Part shown: positions 23,694-34,125 of the stretch, piece after piece
Position numbering within the stretch: position 1 is the first letter of the stretch
Layout of the letters: each line of letters begins with the position of its first letter
Assembly: GCA_028821115.1 (NCBI GenBank)
Contig: JAPPHF010000061.1
Coordinates: 1-34,125, forward strand
DNA length: 34,125 nt
From: Deltaproteobacteria bacterium
Lineage (GTDB): Bacteria > Desulfobacterota > Binatia > UBA9968 > JAJDTQ01
Direction: 5' to 3'
Position numbers and translations under genes: made by a program
The notes under the pieces: generated by a model
The model's input: only the letters and a program-made list of their open reading frames with translations
Told to the model about the DNA's origin: nothing
The model's database searches: none

Positions 23694-26585
23694 TCAGGCC
23701 CCGGCTTCCCGGGCGTCTTCCCACAGCACCTCCACCGGATGGAGCGCCCGGCGCCCGGTGAGATGCTCGATCTGCTGCCGGCAGGATATCCCCGACGCCA
23801 CCACGCGCGCGTCCTCGGGGGCGGCCTCCACCGCCGGCACCAAGCGGCGGTTGGCGATGGCCACGGACACGTCGTAGTGTTCCTTCTCGAAGCCGAAGGA
23901 GCCGGCCATGCCGCAGCAGCCGGAATCCACCTCGCGCACCTCGTGGCCGGCTTCCCGCAGTACCGACACCGTGGGCGTCATGCCCACCAAGGCCTTCTGG
24001 TGGCAGTGGCCGTGCAGCACCACCGGCGGCCTGGCGTCGCCGCCGTTCTTCAAAGCGCCCACCGCCTCGTCGCGTATCAGCAGCTCCTCGATGAGCAACG
24101 TGTGGCCTGCGACCATGCGCGACGGCTCGTTGCGCAGCAGGTCGGGGTACTCGTCCCGGAGCGTCAGGATGCAGGAAGGCTCCAGGCCCACCACCCGCAC
24201 TCCCTGCTCCACGTGGGGCAGCAGCCGGGCGACGTTCCAGGCGGCGTGGTCCTTGGCGTCCTGCAGCATGCCCTTGGAGATCATCGGGCGGCCGCAGCAG
24301 CGCCGCGGCACGGTCATCACCCGGTAGCCGAGATGCTCCAGCAGGTGGGTGGCCGCCACCGCCACGTCGGGCGTGTTGTAGGTGTTGAAGGTGTCGTGGA
24401 ACAGGATCACCGAGCCGCGGGAGCCGCTTCCCGCGGCATCGCGCTTGTTCCACCAAGTCTCGAAGTTGTTGCGCGCGAAGCTCGGCAACGGGCGCCTGCG
24501 GTCGATGCCCAGGAAGCGGTCCAGGAACCAGCGGCTGATGAAGCTGCCGTTGACCCGGTTCGTGACCGGCGCCGTCAACGAGCCCCAGCGGCTCAGGGCG
24601 CCGATGCGGCCGAACAGGCGGCTCCGCAGCGACACCCCGTGCACCTGCTGGTAGTGGTGCAGGAACTCGTACTTGAGCTTGGCCATGTCGACGTTGGAGG
24701 GGCACTCGGCCTTGCAGCCCTTGCACTCGAGGCACAGGTCCAGCACCTCGTGGAGCCGCTCGCCGGTGAACTCGGAGCGCGGCACCTTGCCGGACAACAC
24801 CGCGCGGAAGGCGGTGGCGCGCCCGCGGGTGGAGTGCTCCTCCTCCATTGTAGCCATGTAGGACGGGCACATGGTGCCGCCCAGGGTCTTGCGGCAGGCG
24901 CCGGTGCCGTTGCACATCTCCACCGCCGCCACGAAACCGCCCTGGTCGCTGAAGTCCAGCATCGTGTCCGGCTCCCAGGTCTTGTAGGAGGTGCCGTAGC
25001 GGAGCGAATCGGTCATGGGCGGCGCGTCCACGATCTTGCCGGGATTGAGCAGGTTGTCGGGATCGAACAGGCGCTTGACCTTGCGGAACTCCTGGTACAG
25101 CTCGGGGCCGAAGAGCTTCTCGTTCAGGTGGCTGCGGGCCAGGCCGTCGCCGTGCTCGCCGGACATGGCGCCGCCAAACTCCATCACCAAGTCCGAGATC
25201 TCGCGGGAGATCACCGTCATCTTCTCCACCTCGCCCGCTTCCTTGAGGTTGATGAACGGGCGGATGTGCATGCAGCCCACGGAGCAGTGGCCGTAGTAGC
25301 CGGCGCGGACGCCGTGGCTGCCGAGGATGCCGCGGAAGCGCTTGATGAACTCGGGCAGCCTCACCGGGTCCACCGCGGTGTCCTCGACGAACGCGATGGG
25401 CTTCTTCTCTCCCTTGATGCCCAGCAGGAGCCCCAGGCCGGCCTTGCGCACGCCCCAGATCTGATTCACCTCCCGTGGCTCGTAGGCCACGGAGGCGGCG
25501 TAGCCCATGCGCTCGCGCTGGCGGATCACCTCCAGCTTGTCGACCTTGTCGCGGACCTCCTCCAGGGTGTCGCCGTCGTATTCCACCATGAGGATGGCGT
25601 CCGGGTCGCCCTGCACGAAGCCCAGCCGCTTGGACTGCTCGATGTTGTTGCGCGCCAGGTCCAGGATGGGCTTGTCGGTGAGCTCCATGGCGTAGGGGTC
25701 GGTGGCGAGGATGGTTTCGGACACCGCCAGCGCGTCCTGGAGGTCGTGGAAGTGGATGACGTCCAGGGCGGTGAACTTCGGCTTGGGCACCAGCCGCATC
25801 TTGGCTTCCACCACGCACGCGAGGGTGCCCTCGGAGCCCACGATCAGGCGCGAGAGGTTGAACGGCTGGTCCTTGGTGAACTCGTCCAGATTGTAGCCCG
25901 AGACCCGCCGCATGAGCTTGGGATAGCGCTCCGCGATGAGCCCGCCGGCGGACTCCACCAGCGGCGGGAGCTGCTGGTAGATGCGGTTTTCCAGCCCCTT
26001 CCCTCCCTGCCTGGCGGCGAGCCCGTCCGTCGAGAGGTCCGTCAGCACCGCCTCGCTTCCGTCGGCCAGGAGCACGGTCAGCTCCAGCACGTGGTCCAGG
26101 GTTTTGCCGTAGACGACGGAATGGGCGCCGGCCGAGTTGTTGCCGATCATGCCGCCGATGGTGGCCCGGTTCGAGGTGGAGGTGTCCGGCCCGAAGAGCA
26201 TCCCCATGGGCGCCACGTGGGAATTAAGGGCGTCCTGGACCAGCCCCGGCTGGACGCGGGCCCAGAGCTCCTCCTGGTTCGTTTCCAGCACCTGGTTCAT
26301 GTACTTCGAGAAGTCCATGACGATGGCGTGGCCCACGGTCTGGCCCGCCAGTGAGGTGCCGCCGCCCCGGGCCAGCACCGGCACCCTGTGCCGGTTGGCC
26401 ACCTCGATGACCGCCTGCACGTCGCCCTTGTGCCTAGGGATCACCACGCCCACCGGCTCCATCTGGTAGATGGACGCATCGGTGGCGTAGAGCAGCCGCG
26501 AGTAGTGGTCGAACCGTACCTCGCCCTCCACCCGCTTGCGGAGCTCGGCCTCGGTCTCCCGGTAATCCTGCACTTCACGCGCCAT
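23694..26585 (-). CDS. FAD-binding / Fe-S-binding fusion dehydrogenase (GlcD+GlpC-like, YdiJ-like)
   Basis: About 963 aa from ATG 26585; PVLARGGGTSLAGQTVG FAD_binding_4; CLECKGCKAECPSNVDMAK 4Fe-4S; C-terminal CCGRPM and CCGMAGSFGFEK CCG motifs. Confidence 0.92.
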   Translation of the reverse strand: MAREVQDYRETEAELRKRVEGEVRFDHYSRLLYATDASIYQMEPVGVVIPRHKGDVQAVIEVANRHRVPVLARGGGTSLAGQTVGHAIVMDFSKYMNQVLETNQEELWARVQPGLVQDALNSHVAPMGMLFGPDTSTSNRATIGGMIGNNSAGAHSVVYGKTLDHVLELTVLLADGSEAVLTDLSTDGLAARQGGKGLENRIYQQLPPLVESAGGLIAERYPKLMRRVSGYNLDEFTKDQPFNLSRLIVGSEGTLACVVEAKMRLVPKPKFTALDVIHFHDLQDALAVSETILATDPYAMELTDKPILDLARNNIEQSKRLGFVQGDPDAILMVEYDGDTLEEVRDKVDKLEVIRQRERMGYAASVAYEPREVNQIWGVRKAGLGLLLGIKGEKKPIAFVEDTAVDPVRLPEFIKRFRGILGSHGVRAGYYGHCSVGCMHIRPFINLKEAGEVEKMTVISREISDLVMEFGGAMSGEHGDGLARSHLNEKLFGPELYQEFRKVKRLFDPDNLLNPGKIVDAPPMTDSLRYGTSYKTWEPDTMLDFSDQGGFVAAVEMCNGTGACRKTLGGTMCPSYMATMEEEHSTRGRATAFRAVLSGKVPRSEFTGERLHEVLDLCLECKGCKAECPSNVDMAKLKYEFLHHYQQVHGVSLRSRLFGRIGALSRWGSLTAPVTNRVNGSFISRWFLDRFLGIDRRRPLPSFARNNFETWWNKRDAAGSGSRGSVILFHDTFNTYNTPDVAVAATHLLEHLGYRVMTVPRRCCGRPMISKGMLQDAKDHAAWNVARLLPHVEQGVRVVGLEPSCILTLRDEYPDLLRNEPSRMVAGHTLLIEELLIRDEAVGALKNGGDARPPVVLHGHCHQKALVGMTPTVSVLREAGHEVREVDSGCCGMAGSFGFEKEHYDVSVAIANRRLVPAVEAAPEDARVVASGISCRQQIEHLTGRRALHPVEVLWEDAREAGA

Positions 26586-26661
26586 GGGAAATGCTCCTCG
26601 CCGCCACCCCGTCACGAACGAGATGGCGATGGCTCAGGTATCCCCGCCTCTGCGGAAAGAC

Positions 26662-27221: not shown

Positions 27222-27575
27222 TCAATCACGCACGCGAATCCTCGACTCCTCCACGATCCAGAGCTGGCCGTCGACGGAGCCGGTGGAAAGCTGCTCAAGA
27301 AACCGCGCTCCAATTTCCAGAAGATGGTCGCGTGCTTGATTGTCCAGTCGAAACACGACGATTCCCGGATATGCGCCGGGCCGATATGTTCGGATGTCCG
27401 AAAAGTCACCATCGAGCGTCACGATTGCGCGGCGCTCCTGAACACAGACGGTCGCCAGGTCCGGATCGCTTACGCCGCCCAGTTGCTGATCGAGAACGGT
27501 CACCGCATCGTGACCCGCCCTATTAAACAACTCCGCCATTTCTGCGGGAAGGTTTTCGTCCAGCTTGAACCGCAC
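27222..27575 (-). CDS. DUF5615 family PIN-like protein (putative toxin)
   Basis: MRFKLDENLPAEMAELFNRAGHDAVTVLDQQLGGVSDPDLATVCVQERRAIVTLDGDFSDIRTYRPG. Confidence 0.88.
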   Translation of the reverse strand: MRFKLDENLPAEMAELFNRAGHDAVTVLDQQLGGVSDPDLATVCVQERRAIVTLDGDFSDIRTYRPGAYPGIVVFRLDNQARDHLLEIGARFLEQLSTGSVDGQLWIVEESRIRVRD

Positions 27576-28764: not shown

Positions 28765-30375
28765 GTGCCGCAATTTGACGTTCTCGTTATCGGTGGAGGC
28801 GCATCCGGTCTGCGCGCGGCCATCGCCGCCAAGCGCGCCGGGGCGTCGGTGGCGGTGCTGAGCAAGGTCCATCCGCTGCGAACCAACTCGGCGCTGTCCC
28901 CGGGCGGCCTGAACGCGCCCCTGGGCAGCGACGACTCCGCGGAAAAATTCGCCCAGGATATCAGAAGCGCCGGCGACGGCCTGTGCGACACCGAGGCCGT
29001 GAACATTCTGGCGGCGGACGCGGCCCGAGAGGTCATCTGGCTCGAGCGCGTCGGCGTTCCTTTCAACCGCGATGCCGAGGGGCGTATCGACCGCCGCGCG
29101 TTGGGTTCCAGCAGCGTGCAGCGCGCCGCCTATGCCGACGACCGTACCGGCCACATGGTCCTCCACGTGCTGCACGAGCAATTCCAGAGAGAGGACATCC
29201 CCTGTTTCAGCGAATGGTTCGTCACCTCGCTGATCCAGGACGGCGGGGCGTGCACCGGAGCGGTGGCCCTGGGGCACAGGAGCGGCCAGCTCGAAACCTT
29301 CGCGGCCGGCGCGGTGGTCCTCGCCACCGGGGGCGCCACCCAGCTGTACCGTCCGTGCACCTCGGCCGTGGGCACCACCGGCGACGGCCTCATGCTCGCC
29401 TACGACTTGGGCGTCGGCCTGGTGGACCTGGAGATGGTGCAGTTCCATCCCACGGTGTACAGCACGGACCGGACGGCGCTCGTCAGCGAAGCGGCCCTGA
29501 GCGAAGGCGCGCAACTCGTCAACGAGGCGGGCGACGCGGTGGTGGATGCCGCCGGGCTCTCCAGGGCGGAACTGGCGGCGGCGGTCCACAAGGCGGGCCA
29601 CAACGGCGGCGGGCCGGTGTCCCTCGACCTTCGCCCGGTTGCGGACCTGGCGTCGCGCTTTCCCGGGGCGCTGGAGGTGGTCAAGTCCATGGCCGGCATC
29701 GACGCGTCCCAGAATCCGGTTCCGGTTCAGCCGGTGGCGCACCGGCCCATGGGCGGCATCGAGACCAACGCGGCCGGCGAGACCTCGGTGTCCGGGCTCT
29801 ACGCCGTCGGCGAGTGCGCCCACAACGGCCTCAACGGCGCCGGACGGCTTCCGGGCAACACCCTCACCGAAGCGGTGGTGTTCGGTAAGCGGGTGGGGGA
29901 AGCGGCGGCGTCCCACGCCAGGTCGGCGGGCGCCAAGGAGGCGGCCGGCTCGGCCGCGCGGGACAACGAACGGCTGGCGGAGATCACCTCCGGAGGCTCG
30001 TCCGGCGACACCCTGGGCACCATCCATCGCGAGTTGGGCGAGCTGATGAGCGCCAACCTCGGGGTGACCCGCACGGATGCGGGGCTGGCCGAGGCCCAGG
30101 ACAAGATCCGCGCGCTGCAGCAGCGCCACGCCGCGCTTCGCGTCAACAACAAGTCGCGAATCTACAACTATGCGCTGGCGGGCCATATCGAGCTTGGGAA
30201 CCTCCTCAAGCTGGCGGAGGCCACGGCGCTGGCAGCCCGGGGCCGCGCCGAGAGCCGCGGCGCCCATCTCAGAAGCGACCATCCGGAGAAGGACGACTCG
30301 AACTGGAAGGCGCACACCGTGGTGCGCTCGCAGGACGGCTCGCCGAAGCTCGATACCCGGCCGGTATCGGCGTAA
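28765..30375 (+). CDS. SdhA/FrdA/NadB-family flavoprotein, divergent (GTG start)
   Basis: FDVLVIGGGASGLRAAIAAKRAGASVAVLSKVHPLRTNSALSPGGL; VQFHPT; AHRPMGGIETN; GLYAVGECAHNGLNGAGRLPGNTLTEAVVFG. Confidence 0.88.
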   Translation: MPQFDVLVIGGGASGLRAAIAAKRAGASVAVLSKVHPLRTNSALSPGGLNAPLGSDDSAEKFAQDIRSAGDGLCDTEAVNILAADAAREVIWLERVGVPFNRDAEGRIDRRALGSSSVQRAAYADDRTGHMVLHVLHEQFQREDIPCFSEWFVTSLIQDGGACTGAVALGHRSGQLETFAAGAVVLATGGATQLYRPCTSAVGTTGDGLMLAYDLGVGLVDLEMVQFHPTVYSTDRTALVSEAALSEGAQLVNEAGDAVVDAAGLSRAELAAAVHKAGHNGGGPVSLDLRPVADLASRFPGALEVVKSMAGIDASQNPVPVQPVAHRPMGGIETNAAGETSVSGLYAVGECAHNGLNGAGRLPGNTLTEAVVFGKRVGEAAASHARSAGAKEAAGSAARDNERLAEITSGGSSGDTLGTIHRELGELMSANLGVTRTDAGLAEAQDKIRALQQRHAALRVNNKSRIYNYALAGHIELGNLLKLAEATALAARGRAESRGAHLRSDHPEKDDSNWKAHTVVRSQDGSPKLDTRPVSA

Positions 30376-30441: not shown

Positions 30442-31398
30442 ATGGAAGTCACCTACAAGATCAATCGCAAGGACCCGGAGAACGGCGGCGAGTCGGGCTA
30501 CGCCACCTACCAGGTGGACCTGCCCGAGGACGCCACGGTCCTGGACGGGCTCCAGAAGATCCGCGACGAGCAGGATGACAGCCTGGCTTTCCGCGCCTCC
30601 TGTTGCCAGGGCACCTGCGGCGAGTGCGCGGTGCGCATCAACTACAAGGCCCAGTTCACCTGCACCACCCGGATCGGCGACGTCACCAAGAAGGCCCCGG
30701 AGGTCCAGTTGGATCCGGTGCGCAACATCTCGGTGATCAAGGACCTGGTGTTCGACATGGACGCCTTCACCTGGGACAAGATGGCCGCCGTAAAGCCCTG
30801 GATGGAGCCGGACGAGGAGTTCGCGCCCACCGAGAACATCGTGTCCGAGAAGGACATGGCGGACGTGCGCAAGACCATGAGCTGCTACCAGTGCGGCCTG
30901 TGCGACGAGGGGTGCGCGGTGCTTCCGGTGAACTTCGACTTCCTCGGGCCCGGCGCCATGGTCAAGAGCTACCGCTTCGTCATGGACCCGCGGGAGAGCG
31001 GCGCCCAGATGGACGCCCGCATGAAGGTGGTGGAGCAACCCCAGGGGCTTTGGGACTGCGTCCACTGCTACGAGGCCGACGGCAAGTGCCCGCGCGGGCT
31101 GACTCCCTCCACCAAGATCATGGAAATACGCGACGTGTCCTTCAAGGAAGGCATCAAGAACGAGAAGGTCGGCCGGCACCACGCGAGCTTCATCAACTCG
31201 GTGAAGCAGACCGGCTGGCTCGACGAGCGCAAGCTGGTCATGGAGACCGAAGGCTTGACCAACGTCGCCGGACTGATGAAGCTGCTGCCCACCGCGGTGC
31301 GCGCCATGCGGCGCGGGAAAATGCCCGGCCGTCACGAGAAGCGCCCCGGGGCCGATCAAATCAAGCGCATTATCGAAAAAGCGGAGGAGTCCAAGTGA
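30442..31398 (+). CDS. Succinate dehydrogenase/fumarate reductase iron-sulfur subunit
   Basis: AAGGAGG upstream; [2Fe-2S] motif CCQGTCGECAVRINYKAQFTC; CYQCGLCDEGCAV and CVHCYEADGKCPRGLTP cluster motifs. Confidence 0.92.
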   Translation: MEVTYKINRKDPENGGESGYATYQVDLPEDATVLDGLQKIRDEQDDSLAFRASCCQGTCGECAVRINYKAQFTCTTRIGDVTKKAPEVQLDPVRNISVIKDLVFDMDAFTWDKMAAVKPWMEPDEEFAPTENIVSEKDMADVRKTMSCYQCGLCDEGCAVLPVNFDFLGPGAMVKSYRFVMDPRESGAQMDARMKVVEQPQGLWDCVHCYEADGKCPRGLTPSTKIMEIRDVSFKEGIKNEKVGRHHASFINSVKQTGWLDERKLVMETEGLTNVAGLMKLLPTAVRAMRRGKMPGRHEKRPGADQIKRIIEKAEESK

Positions 31399-32273
31399 AA
31401 TACGCGTTCTATCCCGGATGTGTGGCCAAGGGCGGCTGTCCCGAGCTCTACTCCGCAGCCGTGAAGGTAGCCGAGAAGCTCGACATCGAGCTCGAGGAGA
31501 TGACCGACGTGTCGTGCACCGGCGCCGGCTGCATGCCGACGCAGCTTTCGGACCCCATCAACGCGCGGACCTTTGCCAAGGCGGAGCAGATGGGACTTCC
31601 CATCATGACCATCTGCAGCACCTGCCAGGGCGTCTTCAGCCAGGCCAACCACCGGCTGCAGGACCCCGAGTACCGGGAAGAGATCAACCGCGAGTACCTG
31701 GCCGACGAAGGGCTTTCGTACCAGGGCACCACCGAGGTCACGCACATGCTGTGGGTGCTGTTCGAGGACTACGGCATCGAGAAGCTCCAGTCGCTGATCG
31801 AGCGTCCCCTGAACGGCCTCAAGGTTTCGCCCTTCTACGGCTGCTTCATACGCCGGCCCGGGAACATCATGGTGCCCACCAAGGAGGTGGGCGGCCGCCG
31901 GACCTACCTGGAGGACCTCACCCGCATCCTGGGGGCGGAGAACGTGGACATCAGCGGCAAGACCAAGTGCTGCGGCTTCCCGATCCTCACCGCCAACGAG
32001 GAGGCCTCCCTGGGCATGGTGTCCAAGCACGCCGGCGAGTCAAAGGGCAACGGCGCCGACTGCATGGTGACCCCCTGTCCGCTGTGCCATCTGAACCTCG
32101 ACGGCAACCAGCCGAGAGCCGAGAGCCAGAAGGGTGAGAAGATCGACTTGCCGATCATCCATCTGCCGCAGCTCGTGGGGCTGGCGCTGGGGTTCGACCC
32201 TGACGAAATGCAGCTCAGCCGGCACATCGTGTCCACCAAGGCGGTCAACGACAAGATCGACATGCTCACTTAG
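31395..32273 (+). CDS. CCG-domain protein, HdrB/SdhE-like (GTG start overlapping upstream stop)
   Basis: YAFYPGCVAKGGCPELY; second CCG motif FYGCF...TKCCGFPILT...TPCPLCHLNLD intact. Confidence 0.9.
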   Translation: MKYAFYPGCVAKGGCPELYSAAVKVAEKLDIELEEMTDVSCTGAGCMPTQLSDPINARTFAKAEQMGLPIMTICSTCQGVFSQANHRLQDPEYREEINREYLADEGLSYQGTTEVTHMLWVLFEDYGIEKLQSLIERPLNGLKVSPFYGCFIRRPGNIMVPTKEVGGRRTYLEDLTRILGAENVDISGKTKCCGFPILTANEEASLGMVSKHAGESKGNGADCMVTPCPLCHLNLDGNQPRAESQKGEKIDLPIIHLPQLVGLALGFDPDEMQLSRHIVSTKAVNDKIDMLT

Positions 32274-32276
32274 AGG

Positions 32277-32480
32277 ATGGGCAAGGACGAGTACAAGCCC
32301 AATCCCGTCAACCTGGCCCGGGAGCTGTTCAAGTTCCGCAAGGCGCAGCGTCCCTTCGGCTACTACTACGCCGTGAAGGTCCGGCTCGGCCACGCATGGG
32401 TCGAGAACGAGACGGCCCTGGCGGAGATCCTGTCCGGCATCGACGAACTGGGCTACGAGGTGGTCCGGAAGAAACAGTGA
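32277..32480 (+). CDS. Small uncharacterised 67-aa protein in the Sdh-like operon
   Basis: MGKDEYKPNPVNLARELFKFRKAQRPFGYYYAVKVRLGHAWVENETALAEILSGIDELGYEVVRKKQ; lies 3 nt after the CCG gene stop, in operon orientation. Confidence 0.75.
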   Translation: MGKDEYKPNPVNLARELFKFRKAQRPFGYYYAVKVRLGHAWVENETALAEILSGIDELGYEVVRKKQ

Positions 32481-32517: not shown

Positions 32518-33276
32518 ATGAGTACCGTAGCAATCGACAACAAGAGAACCCTGCGACAGGACACTTGGTGGGTGGAGCCCATGCTGGTGGTGCTGGGTCT
32601 GGGCGCCTTCGCCGTCTACTCGACCTGGGCCGCGTTGCAGAACGGCAACTACTACGCGGACCCGTACCTTTCGCCCTTCTACTCGCCGTGCCTCGCCATC
32701 AACTGCGAGCACGTGAGCGTGCCGCTGTTCGGCTCGTGGTACAACTGGTCACCGGCGATCCTGATCCTGTGGATCCCGGGCGGCTTCCGGCTGACCTGCT
32801 ACTACTACCGCAAGGCCTACTACCGCTCCTTCTTCTGGTCGCCGCCGGCCTGTGCGGTGAAGGACGCGGCCAGCAGCTACTCGGGCGAGACCCGTTTCCC
32901 CTTCATCCTTCAGAACGTCCACCGGTACTTCTTCTGGGCCTCGATACCGATCCTGGTTTTTCTCTGGTGGGATGCGCTGATCGCCTTCAACTTCGGCGGC
33001 AGCTTCGGCATCGGCCTGGGCACCCTGGTGCTGATCGCCAACGCCGCCCTGCTGTCGCTCTACAGCTTTTCCTGCCACTCGTGCCGGCATCTGTGCGGCG
33101 GCGGGCTCAACAGCTTCAAGGCCGCGCCGGGTCGCTTCAAGGTCTGGGGAATCGTCACCAAGCTGAACGAGAAGCACATGCAGATCGCCTGGGTGAGCCT
33201 CGTGTGGGTGGGCCTGACCGACGTCTACGTGCGGCTGCTGGCCCACGGCGTGATCCAGGATCTGAGGATCATCTGA
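32518..33276 (+). CDS. Succinate dehydrogenase membrane-anchor-like protein (actinobacterial Sdh1-like)
   Basis: 252 aa with about 5 hydrophobic segments; YLSPFYSPCL; SFSCHSCRHLCGGGLN; directly precedes SdhA (TGATG overlap). Confidence 0.7.
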   Translation: MSTVAIDNKRTLRQDTWWVEPMLVVLGLGAFAVYSTWAALQNGNYYADPYLSPFYSPCLAINCEHVSVPLFGSWYNWSPAILILWIPGGFRLTCYYYRKAYYRSFFWSPPACAVKDAASSYSGETRFPFILQNVHRYFFWASIPILVFLWWDALIAFNFGGSFGIGLGTLVLIANAALLSLYSFSCHSCRHLCGGGLNSFKAAPGRFKVWGIVTKLNEKHMQIAWVSLVWVGLTDVYVRLLAHGVIQDLRII

Positions 33277-34125
33277 TGGCCGGCGAGAGCTACGAGACGC
33301 ACGACTACGACGTGGTAGTGGTGGGAGCCGGGGGCGCCGGGCTGCGGGCCGGCATCGAGGCCCACGACAAGGGCTGCAGGACCGCCATCATCTGCAAGTC
33401 GCTGCTGGGCAAGGCCCACACGGTCATGGCCGAGGGCGGCATCGCCGCGGCCATGGGCAACGTCTGGCCGGAGGATAACTGGAAGGTCCACTTCCGCGAC
33501 ACCATGCGCGGCGGCAAGCTCCTGAACAACTGGCGCATGGCGCAAATCCACGCCCAGCAGGCGCCCGACCGGGTGCTGGAGCTGGAGGAATGGGGCGCGC
33601 TGTTCGACCGCACCGACGAGGGGCTGATCTTGCAGCGGGACTTCGGCGGCCACCGCTACGCGCGATTGGCCCACGTGGGCGACCGCACCGGCCTGGAGAT
33701 GATCCGCACCCTGCAGCAGCGTGCCGTGGCGCTGGGCATCGACGTCTACATGGAGTGCAACATCCAGCACCTGCTGATGAACGACGGCCGGGTGAGCGGG
33801 GCCGTGGGCTACTGGCGCGAGAGCGGCGAGCTCGTCGTGTTCACCTGCAAGGCCGTGGTGCTGGCCACGGGCGGATCCGGCAAGTGCTGGCAGGTGACCT
33901 CCAACTCCTGGGAGTACAGCGGAGACGGCATGGGCATGGCCATGGAGGTGGGCGCCGATCTCATCGACATGGAGAAGGTCCAGTTCCACCCCACGGGGAT
34001 GGTCTGGCCCCCCAGCGTCCGCGGCATCCTGGTGACCGAGGGGGTGCGCGGCGACGGCGGCACCCTGCTGAACTCCGAGGGCGAGCGCTTCATGTTCAAC
34101 TACATCTCCGACTTCTTCAAGGCGG
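33276..34125 (+). CDS. sdhA: Succinate dehydrogenase/fumarate reductase flavoprotein subunit (partial, runs off right edge)
   Basis: YDVVVVGAGGAGLRAGIEA; GKAHTVMAEGGIAAAMGN (covalent-FAD His conserved); VQFHPTGMVWPPSVRGILVTEGVRGDGGTLLNSEGERFM (catalytic Arg conserved). Confidence 0.93.
   Translation, partial: MAGESYETHDYDVVVVGAGGAGLRAGIEAHDKGCRTAIICKSLLGKAHTVMAEGGIAAAMGNVWPEDNWKVHFRDTMRGGKLLNNWRMAQIHAQQAPDRVLELEEWGALFDRTDEGLILQRDFGGHRYARLAHVGDRTGLEMIRTLQQRAVALGIDVYMECNIQHLLMNDGRVSGAVGYWRESGELVVFTCKAVVLATGGSGKCWQVTSNSWEYSGDGMGMAMEVGADLIDMEKVQFHPTGMVWPPSVRGILVTEGVRGDGGTLLNSEGERFMFNYISDFFKA

Follow-up and report, generated by a model that had tools for sequence, protein, structure and literature searches.

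An A1-B1-E gene set of Binatia, a divergent relative of SdhABE, whose predicted flavoprotein has lost a proton-relay arginine and retains the catalytic one

The flavoprotein A1 belongs, together with an iron-sulfur subunit (B1) and an HdrB/SdhE-like subunit (E), to what its sequence identifies as a three-subunit relative of fumarate reductase in Binatia, a divergent SdhABE complex in which all three subunits carry unusual motif changes. In A1 the histidine that links FAD covalently is replaced by asparagine and the second proton-relay arginine by leucine, and the catalytic arginine is kept. The reading preferred here, to which a probability of roughly 0.38 is given, is that A1 serves as catalytic flavoprotein in a distinct and probably soluble A1-B1-E complex, with non-covalently bound FAD, which reduces fumarate or a similar acid and is probably linked to electron-transfer flavoprotein (ETF). 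The genes lie in the window (the whole 34,125-nucleotide stretch analysed, which is the end of a contig from an incomplete genome, the nearest named relatives being metagenome assemblies labelled Candidatus Binatia / 'Deltaproteobacteria'), all six on the same strand, with the following features:

28765..30375, plus strand: A1, FAD-binding flavoprotein of the SdhA/FrdA family, 536 aa; GTG start closely preceded by AAAGGGGA, stop at 30375
28885-28887, plus strand: codon of Asn41, aligned at the covalent-FAD His position (SdhA His45, FrdA His44)
29497-29499, plus strand: codon of Leu245, aligned at SdhA Arg258 / FrdA Arg248, the Arg of TEGCRGEGG and second proton-relay Arg
29563-29565, plus strand: codon of Arg267 in LSRAEL, kept and aligned as the catalytic Arg (SdhA Arg286 / FrdA Arg287)
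30442..31398, plus strand: B1, iron-sulfur subunit, 318 aa; [2Fe-2S] and two further cluster motifs, HdrC-like C-terminal extension
31057..31092, plus strand: third-cluster motif of B1, CVHCYEADGKCP; Ala replaces the third Cys of CxxCxxCxxxCP
31395..32273, plus strand: E, 292 aa, a subunit resembling HdrB/SdhE and bearing two CCG domains; its GTG start overlaps the stop codon of B1 (GTGA)
31413-31439, plus strand: extra Cys of E, at PGCVAKGGC
31515..31529, plus strand: first CCG motif of E, CTGAG; second Cys replaced by Thr
32277..32480, plus strand: small conserved protein of no known family, 67 aa, 3' of E
32518..33276, plus strand: C, membrane protein, 252 aa, first gene of a neighbouring Sdh1 set; named by position and resemblance
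33276..34125, plus strand: A2, flavoprotein of Sdh1 type, truncated at the end of the contig; retains KAHTV and TEGVRGDGG

Judged from its gene content, A1-B1-E is an SdhABE-type unit without a membrane-anchor gene; it has the A-B-E gene order and the HdrB-like E with CCG domains of non-classical SdhABE, and lacks the two intact CCG motifs in E and the CxxCxxCxxxCP motif in B of that class. The first-pass annotation had described A2 as a second flavoprotein of the same operon in which both altered residues were kept; both residues, the His and the relay Arg, are indeed retained in A2, but A2 is part of a separate neighbouring Sdh1 (C-A-B) set and not of the same complex, since the order in the complete relative L037 is A1-B1-E-small-C-A2-B2, with full-length A2 and B2. 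A single operon in which two flavoproteins share B1 was rejected for family f1, where relatives have a full second set, C-A2-B2. The closest model for A2 in the NCBIfam search was PRK07803, and on this match we take its gene set to be of Sdh1 type. No Pfam or NCBIfam match was obtained for the membrane protein C, and a scan for promoters and terminators returned matches no more frequent than expected by chance. On the minus strand of the window, a 973-aa fusion of FAD-linked oxidase, 4Fe-4S and CCG domains, resembling glycolate/lactate dehydrogenase, was observed at 23694-26615 as a second CCG protein near the locus, and a short ORF resembling by eye a PIN-type (DUF5615-like) protein at 27222-27575.

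The 67-aa protein follows E in families f1 and f3, in part of f11 and in L042, and is absent from f6. It is conserved at about 51-62% across f1, f3, L041/L042 and parts of f11, with the motif NPxxLAxExxKFRKxxxPFGYxYAVxVRLGHA...ELGY; it had no Pfam match and no meaningful match in NCBIfam or the PDB, its AlphaFold model was poor (pLDDT 58.6), and the only match in the phylum sample was the window itself.

A1 was aligned to E. coli FrdA, SdhA and NadB (MG1655 record) and to relatives. The earlier coordinates, frame and motif readings were borne out (28765-30375, 536 aa, GTG start), with QFHPT, AHxxMGG and GRLPGN all present as described, and the alignment agreed with the proposal that the flavin-linking His had become Asn. 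Because Asn41 replaces this His, covalent FAD is not expected in A1, and the non-covalent FAD that had been suggested is well supported as a prediction; in Wolinella 8-methylmenaquinol:fumarate reductase (MFR), which provides a precedent, Ala86 occupies the FAD-linking His position and the enzyme reduces fumarate and shows no succinate oxidation (PMC2680327). Replacement of the His in the E. coli and yeast enzymes has likewise been tied to lost succinate oxidation (PMC2680327).

The same alignment did not uphold the other half of the first-pass annotation, which had taken the Arg missing from SEAALSEGA to be the catalytic proton-shuttle residue FrdA Arg287; the missing residue is FrdA Arg248 / SdhA Arg258. 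The key catalytic Arg has been named as E. coli FrdA Arg287 / SdhA Arg286 (PMC9557727), and it sits in GPRD, AGRD or APRD some 28-40 residues past the TEG motif. On the basis of the alignments and of a predicted helix (residues 267-279) that opens at Arg267 in the AlphaFold model, Arg267 is identified as this residue; Arg occupies the position in 68/68 sequences of a wider alignment and in all 42 of another. An Arg placed at the equivalent position was what the annotation had named as speaking against its claim, and for the Arg half this was found. Pairwise tblastn places Arg267 wrongly, at a nearby gap, in more distant sequences, which the multiple alignments do not. A loss of Arg287 was rejected, its counterpart being Arg267. 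The retained catalytic set comprises His228, Glu242, Arg267, His326 and Arg361 (SdhA His242, Glu255, Arg286, His354 and Arg399). The second relay Arg258 of TEGxRGEG, absent from A1, is present in the other superfamily members aligned and is not formally defining of the superfamily. As the His-13-Glu-3-Arg spacing is identical in SdhA (242, 255, 258) and Fcc3 (365, 378, 381), the lost residue corresponds to Fcc3 Arg381, which has been proposed to take part, along with Glu378 and Arg402, in transferring protons (PMC6242907). Activity is reduced in the equivalent yeast mutant, Osm1 R304A (PMC6242907), and Leu at this position therefore speaks against fumarate reduction of the ordinary kind.

When 68 flavoproteins were placed in a tree, every one of the 26 with Leu at position 258 fell into a single group (support 100/99, recovered in all 200 bootstrap trees), and the remaining 42, all with Arg258, fell outside it. 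The loss of Arg258 is not due to chance, because Leu is found in 26/26 members of one clade and Arg in 42/42 others, and a chance or sequencing substitution at Leu245 was rejected. Within the clade the His45 position is Asn in f1, f3 and f11 and His in f6, L042 and L151; since these last still have His45, the FAD-linking His was probably lost later than Arg258.

The change in A1 is accompanied by changes in both partners. The signature consists of Arg258 to Leu in A1, CxxCxxCxxxCP to CxHCxEAxxxC in B1 and CCGAG to C(T/N)GAG in E, and all three were present in 30/30 members scored and in 0/14 relatives (the 14 include two more distant ones, L043 and L051, the latter with a divergent cluster-3 motif peculiar to it; for the other twelve, the coverage of E leaves out the second CCG domain). 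In full, the clade pattern is C[VTA]HC[FY]EAxxxC[P/A] in B1, compared with CxxCxxCxxxCP in relatives, and C[TN]GAG with an extra Cys (GCV..GxC) in E, compared with CCGAG. The signature is fixed across four families and one genome of another class, and the matching of unusual changes in all three subunits suggests a distinct electron-transfer route. E was the most highly conserved subunit and A1 the least. No E without A1 was found in the class genomes searched, except for two distant matches at 31-35% identity, and the relatives of E on plasmids were only ordinary HdrB-like proteins (32-35% identity). Genome searches were carried out within the phylum, in addition to a single pattern scan of genome contigs that was seeded with peptides from the window, and no description of an A1BE complex was found in open-access literature text.

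By fold, A1 is a member of the SdhA/FrdA complex II flavoprotein superfamily, with both Pfam domains (FAD_binding_2 and Succ_DH_flav_C) and a confident AlphaFold model (pLDDT 93.6) that matches E. coli FrdA with a TM score of 0.96. Catalytic residues are also common to A1 and E. coli FrdA/SdhA, from which A1 differs in lacking the covalent-FAD His and Arg248/258 and in an identity of about 35%; with Asn41 it also lacks the His for covalent FAD by which classical succinate dehydrogenase is recognised. In the profile search A1 did not reach the cut-off of any NCBIfam model shown, and all three subunits fell under the curated equivalog cut-offs, B1 passing only the general dhsB subfamily model. 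Assignment of A1 as NadB (L-aspartate oxidase) was rejected on score (340 of the 453 bits of the nadB cut-off) and gene context; NadB has the non-covalent FAD that is predicted for A1 and, like A1, a catalytic Arg, which in NadB lies in APRD, but its relay Arg is retained and the Phe119 position is occupied by Glu121, where A1, which sits with B1 and E, has Leu.

A conventional explanation, possible if doubtful, is that A1BE works as a non-classical fumarate reductase of ordinary MFR or thiol:fumarate type, taking electrons from a quinol or a thiol pair, and that its motif changes represent lineage drift with the role unchanged. MFR (the SdhABE of Wolinella/Campylobacter) shares with A1BE the subunit plan of A, B and HdrB-like E and the absence of the FAD-linking His; its non-covalent FAD (PMC2680327) is predicted for A1 from Asn41, as is fumarate reduction for A1BE; fumC lies directly upstream of A1 in f3 (L118, L119), which supports the same activity. 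The A1BE scores, however, are far below the cut-offs of the MFR models NF042982, NF042952 and NF042965 (326/1100, 147/600 and 203/500 bits), and Arg258 to Leu and the altered cluster motifs of B1 and E are on the A1BE side only. TfrAB (thiol:fumarate reductase; NF004900, NF004898) likewise combines an SdhA-like flavoprotein with SdhB and HdrB-like parts, but TfrB is one fused chain and A1BE remains under the cut-offs (335/718 and 121/385 bits). Among sequenced complexes built on the A-B-E subunit plan, the nearest are the canonical SdhABE of the same phylum (L155-L172), which, unlike A1BE, retain His45, Arg258, CxxCxxCxxxCP and CCGAG. An ordinary enzyme is at odds with three subunits that changed together and were then fixed in four families and one genome of another class, with first CCG and cluster-3 motifs unlike those of canonical SdhE and SdhB, and with a unit that has no anchor gene.

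A doubtful reading is that the substrate of A1 is a different acid (a 2-enoate or a substituted dicarboxylate) and that A1 works as an enoate reductase or dehydrogenase with a re-tuned pocket. The pocket in the window's genus carries Phe119 to Leu (Leu113), Gln50 to Pro (Pro46) and Gly401 to Pro (Pro363), which together with Leu245 weaken the case for fumarate reduction. In f6 (L122, L123, L124, L125, L138-L140, L142, L143, L145 and L147) the substrate-binding Arg399 is replaced by Gly, Ala or Leu and Leu252 by Phe, with the FAD-linking His kept, so not all members of the clade can catalyse the same reaction, and f6 members probably use a different substrate. Against a general change of substrate, the A1 pocket stays near-canonical in f3 and f11, and the window protein keeps Arg399, His242 and His354. 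The first-pass annotation had proposed a reaction other than that on fumarate or succinate from the supposed Arg loss; this does not follow, since A1 retains the residues for substrate binding and catalysis, and it is the pocket changes in the window's genus and the Arg399 loss in f6 that would allow an altered substrate. A structural or electron-bifurcating A1 without an organic substrate of its own, also suggested earlier, would agree with the lost relay Arg and the further loss of a substrate-binding Arg in f6, but is very improbable, and the window protein is unlikely to be structural only, as the catalytic His, Glu and Arg286 are invariant throughout the clade, a constraint for which a pseudo-enzyme would have no need. 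Least probable is that A1BE is a succinate dehydrogenase, to which family resemblance and TCA-type gene neighbours point, since the window's clade is without the covalent-FAD His, the absence of which has been linked to lost succinate oxidation in work on MFR and the E. coli and yeast enzymes (PMC2680327), and a complete Sdh1 set adjoins A1BE.

The candidate link of the preferred A1-B1-E reading to ETF comes from f11, where A1 is immediately preceded, on its own strand, by a gene for a fused EtfB-EtfA (four genomes, two genera). This adjacency was found in f11 only, where EtfD-like proteins exist too, and the link is suggestive only, because the ETF gene has other neighbours in f11 genomes without A1BE; in f1, etfBA is not adjacent to A1BE. 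Fused EtfB-EtfA genes of about 610 aa were observed to be widespread in the class (L180:6597-8420 and homologues).

E further resembles EtfD, the mycobacterial ETF:menaquinone oxidoreductase, in having C(T/N)G as its first CCG motif and an intact second CCG domain; the link to ETF is also a likeness, suggestive for A1BE. In the first CCG domain of mycobacterial EtfD, Thr539 replaces an Hdr Cys and a linear [3Fe-4S] cluster is bound (PMC13083937). EtfD-like proteins of the window's class read CTG or CNG at this place, the same two residues as in E. Against the parallel, the additional Cys of E could bring the ligands of its first cluster back to five. EtfD differs in having membrane helices, heme and a CPHC motif with a His ligand, none of which E has (it reads CSTC there, and no membrane helices were found in a hydropathy scan of E from the relative G004, L276), and A1BE has a fumarate-reductase flavoprotein.

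An ETF-QO domain (PF05187) was found in none of 145 class genomes, in a search covering ETF oxidoreductases that carry this domain (FixC-type enzymes may lack it). An EtfD-like protein was found in 125 of the 145, but all nine from the window's genus (G000-G008) gave no match, including one closed and one four-contig assembly; a scan of the closed genome for CCG proteins gave none of EtfD size. Members of the genus that were checked retain etfB-etfA, standing alone. From these genomes, the genus appears to lack both ETF-QO and EtfD, the two ETF acceptors covered by the search.

In the mechanism proposed for A1-B1-E, FAD would be bound non-covalently by A1, the enzyme would run in the reductive direction, and fumarate or a closely related unsaturated acid would be reduced. 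Less certainly, electrons may enter at E, its first CCG domain being remodelled as in EtfD into a wire-type cluster, and may pass via B1 to the FAD of A1; the donor to E would probably be ETF, which is the least certain step. The succinate formed might then be re-oxidised by the adjacent Sdh1 (or Frd-type) enzyme; A1BE adjoins another succinate/fumarate enzyme of a type that varies between families, and in f3 (L118, L119, L120) the genes that come after the unit encode a different flavoprotein, FrdA-like, and SdhB. In its fullest and unlikely form, the proposal would make A1BE an anchorless ETF:fumarate oxidoreductase with an EtfD-like linear [3Fe-4S] cluster in E, and a complex-II relative of a new class. 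Electrons from beta-oxidation would be handed to fumarate and would reach the quinone pool by way of the adjacent succinate dehydrogenase, A1BE replacing the missing ETF-QO and EtfD in the window's genus.

A relay Arg that was lost once and fixed in a fumarate-reductase flavoprotein with the catalytic Arg kept offers a natural test of the role of the relay, and the three-subunit signature defines a complex that is missed by the curated models. If the link to ETF is true, it would explain where the electrons of beta-oxidation go in a bacterial genus that has neither ETF-QO nor EtfD.
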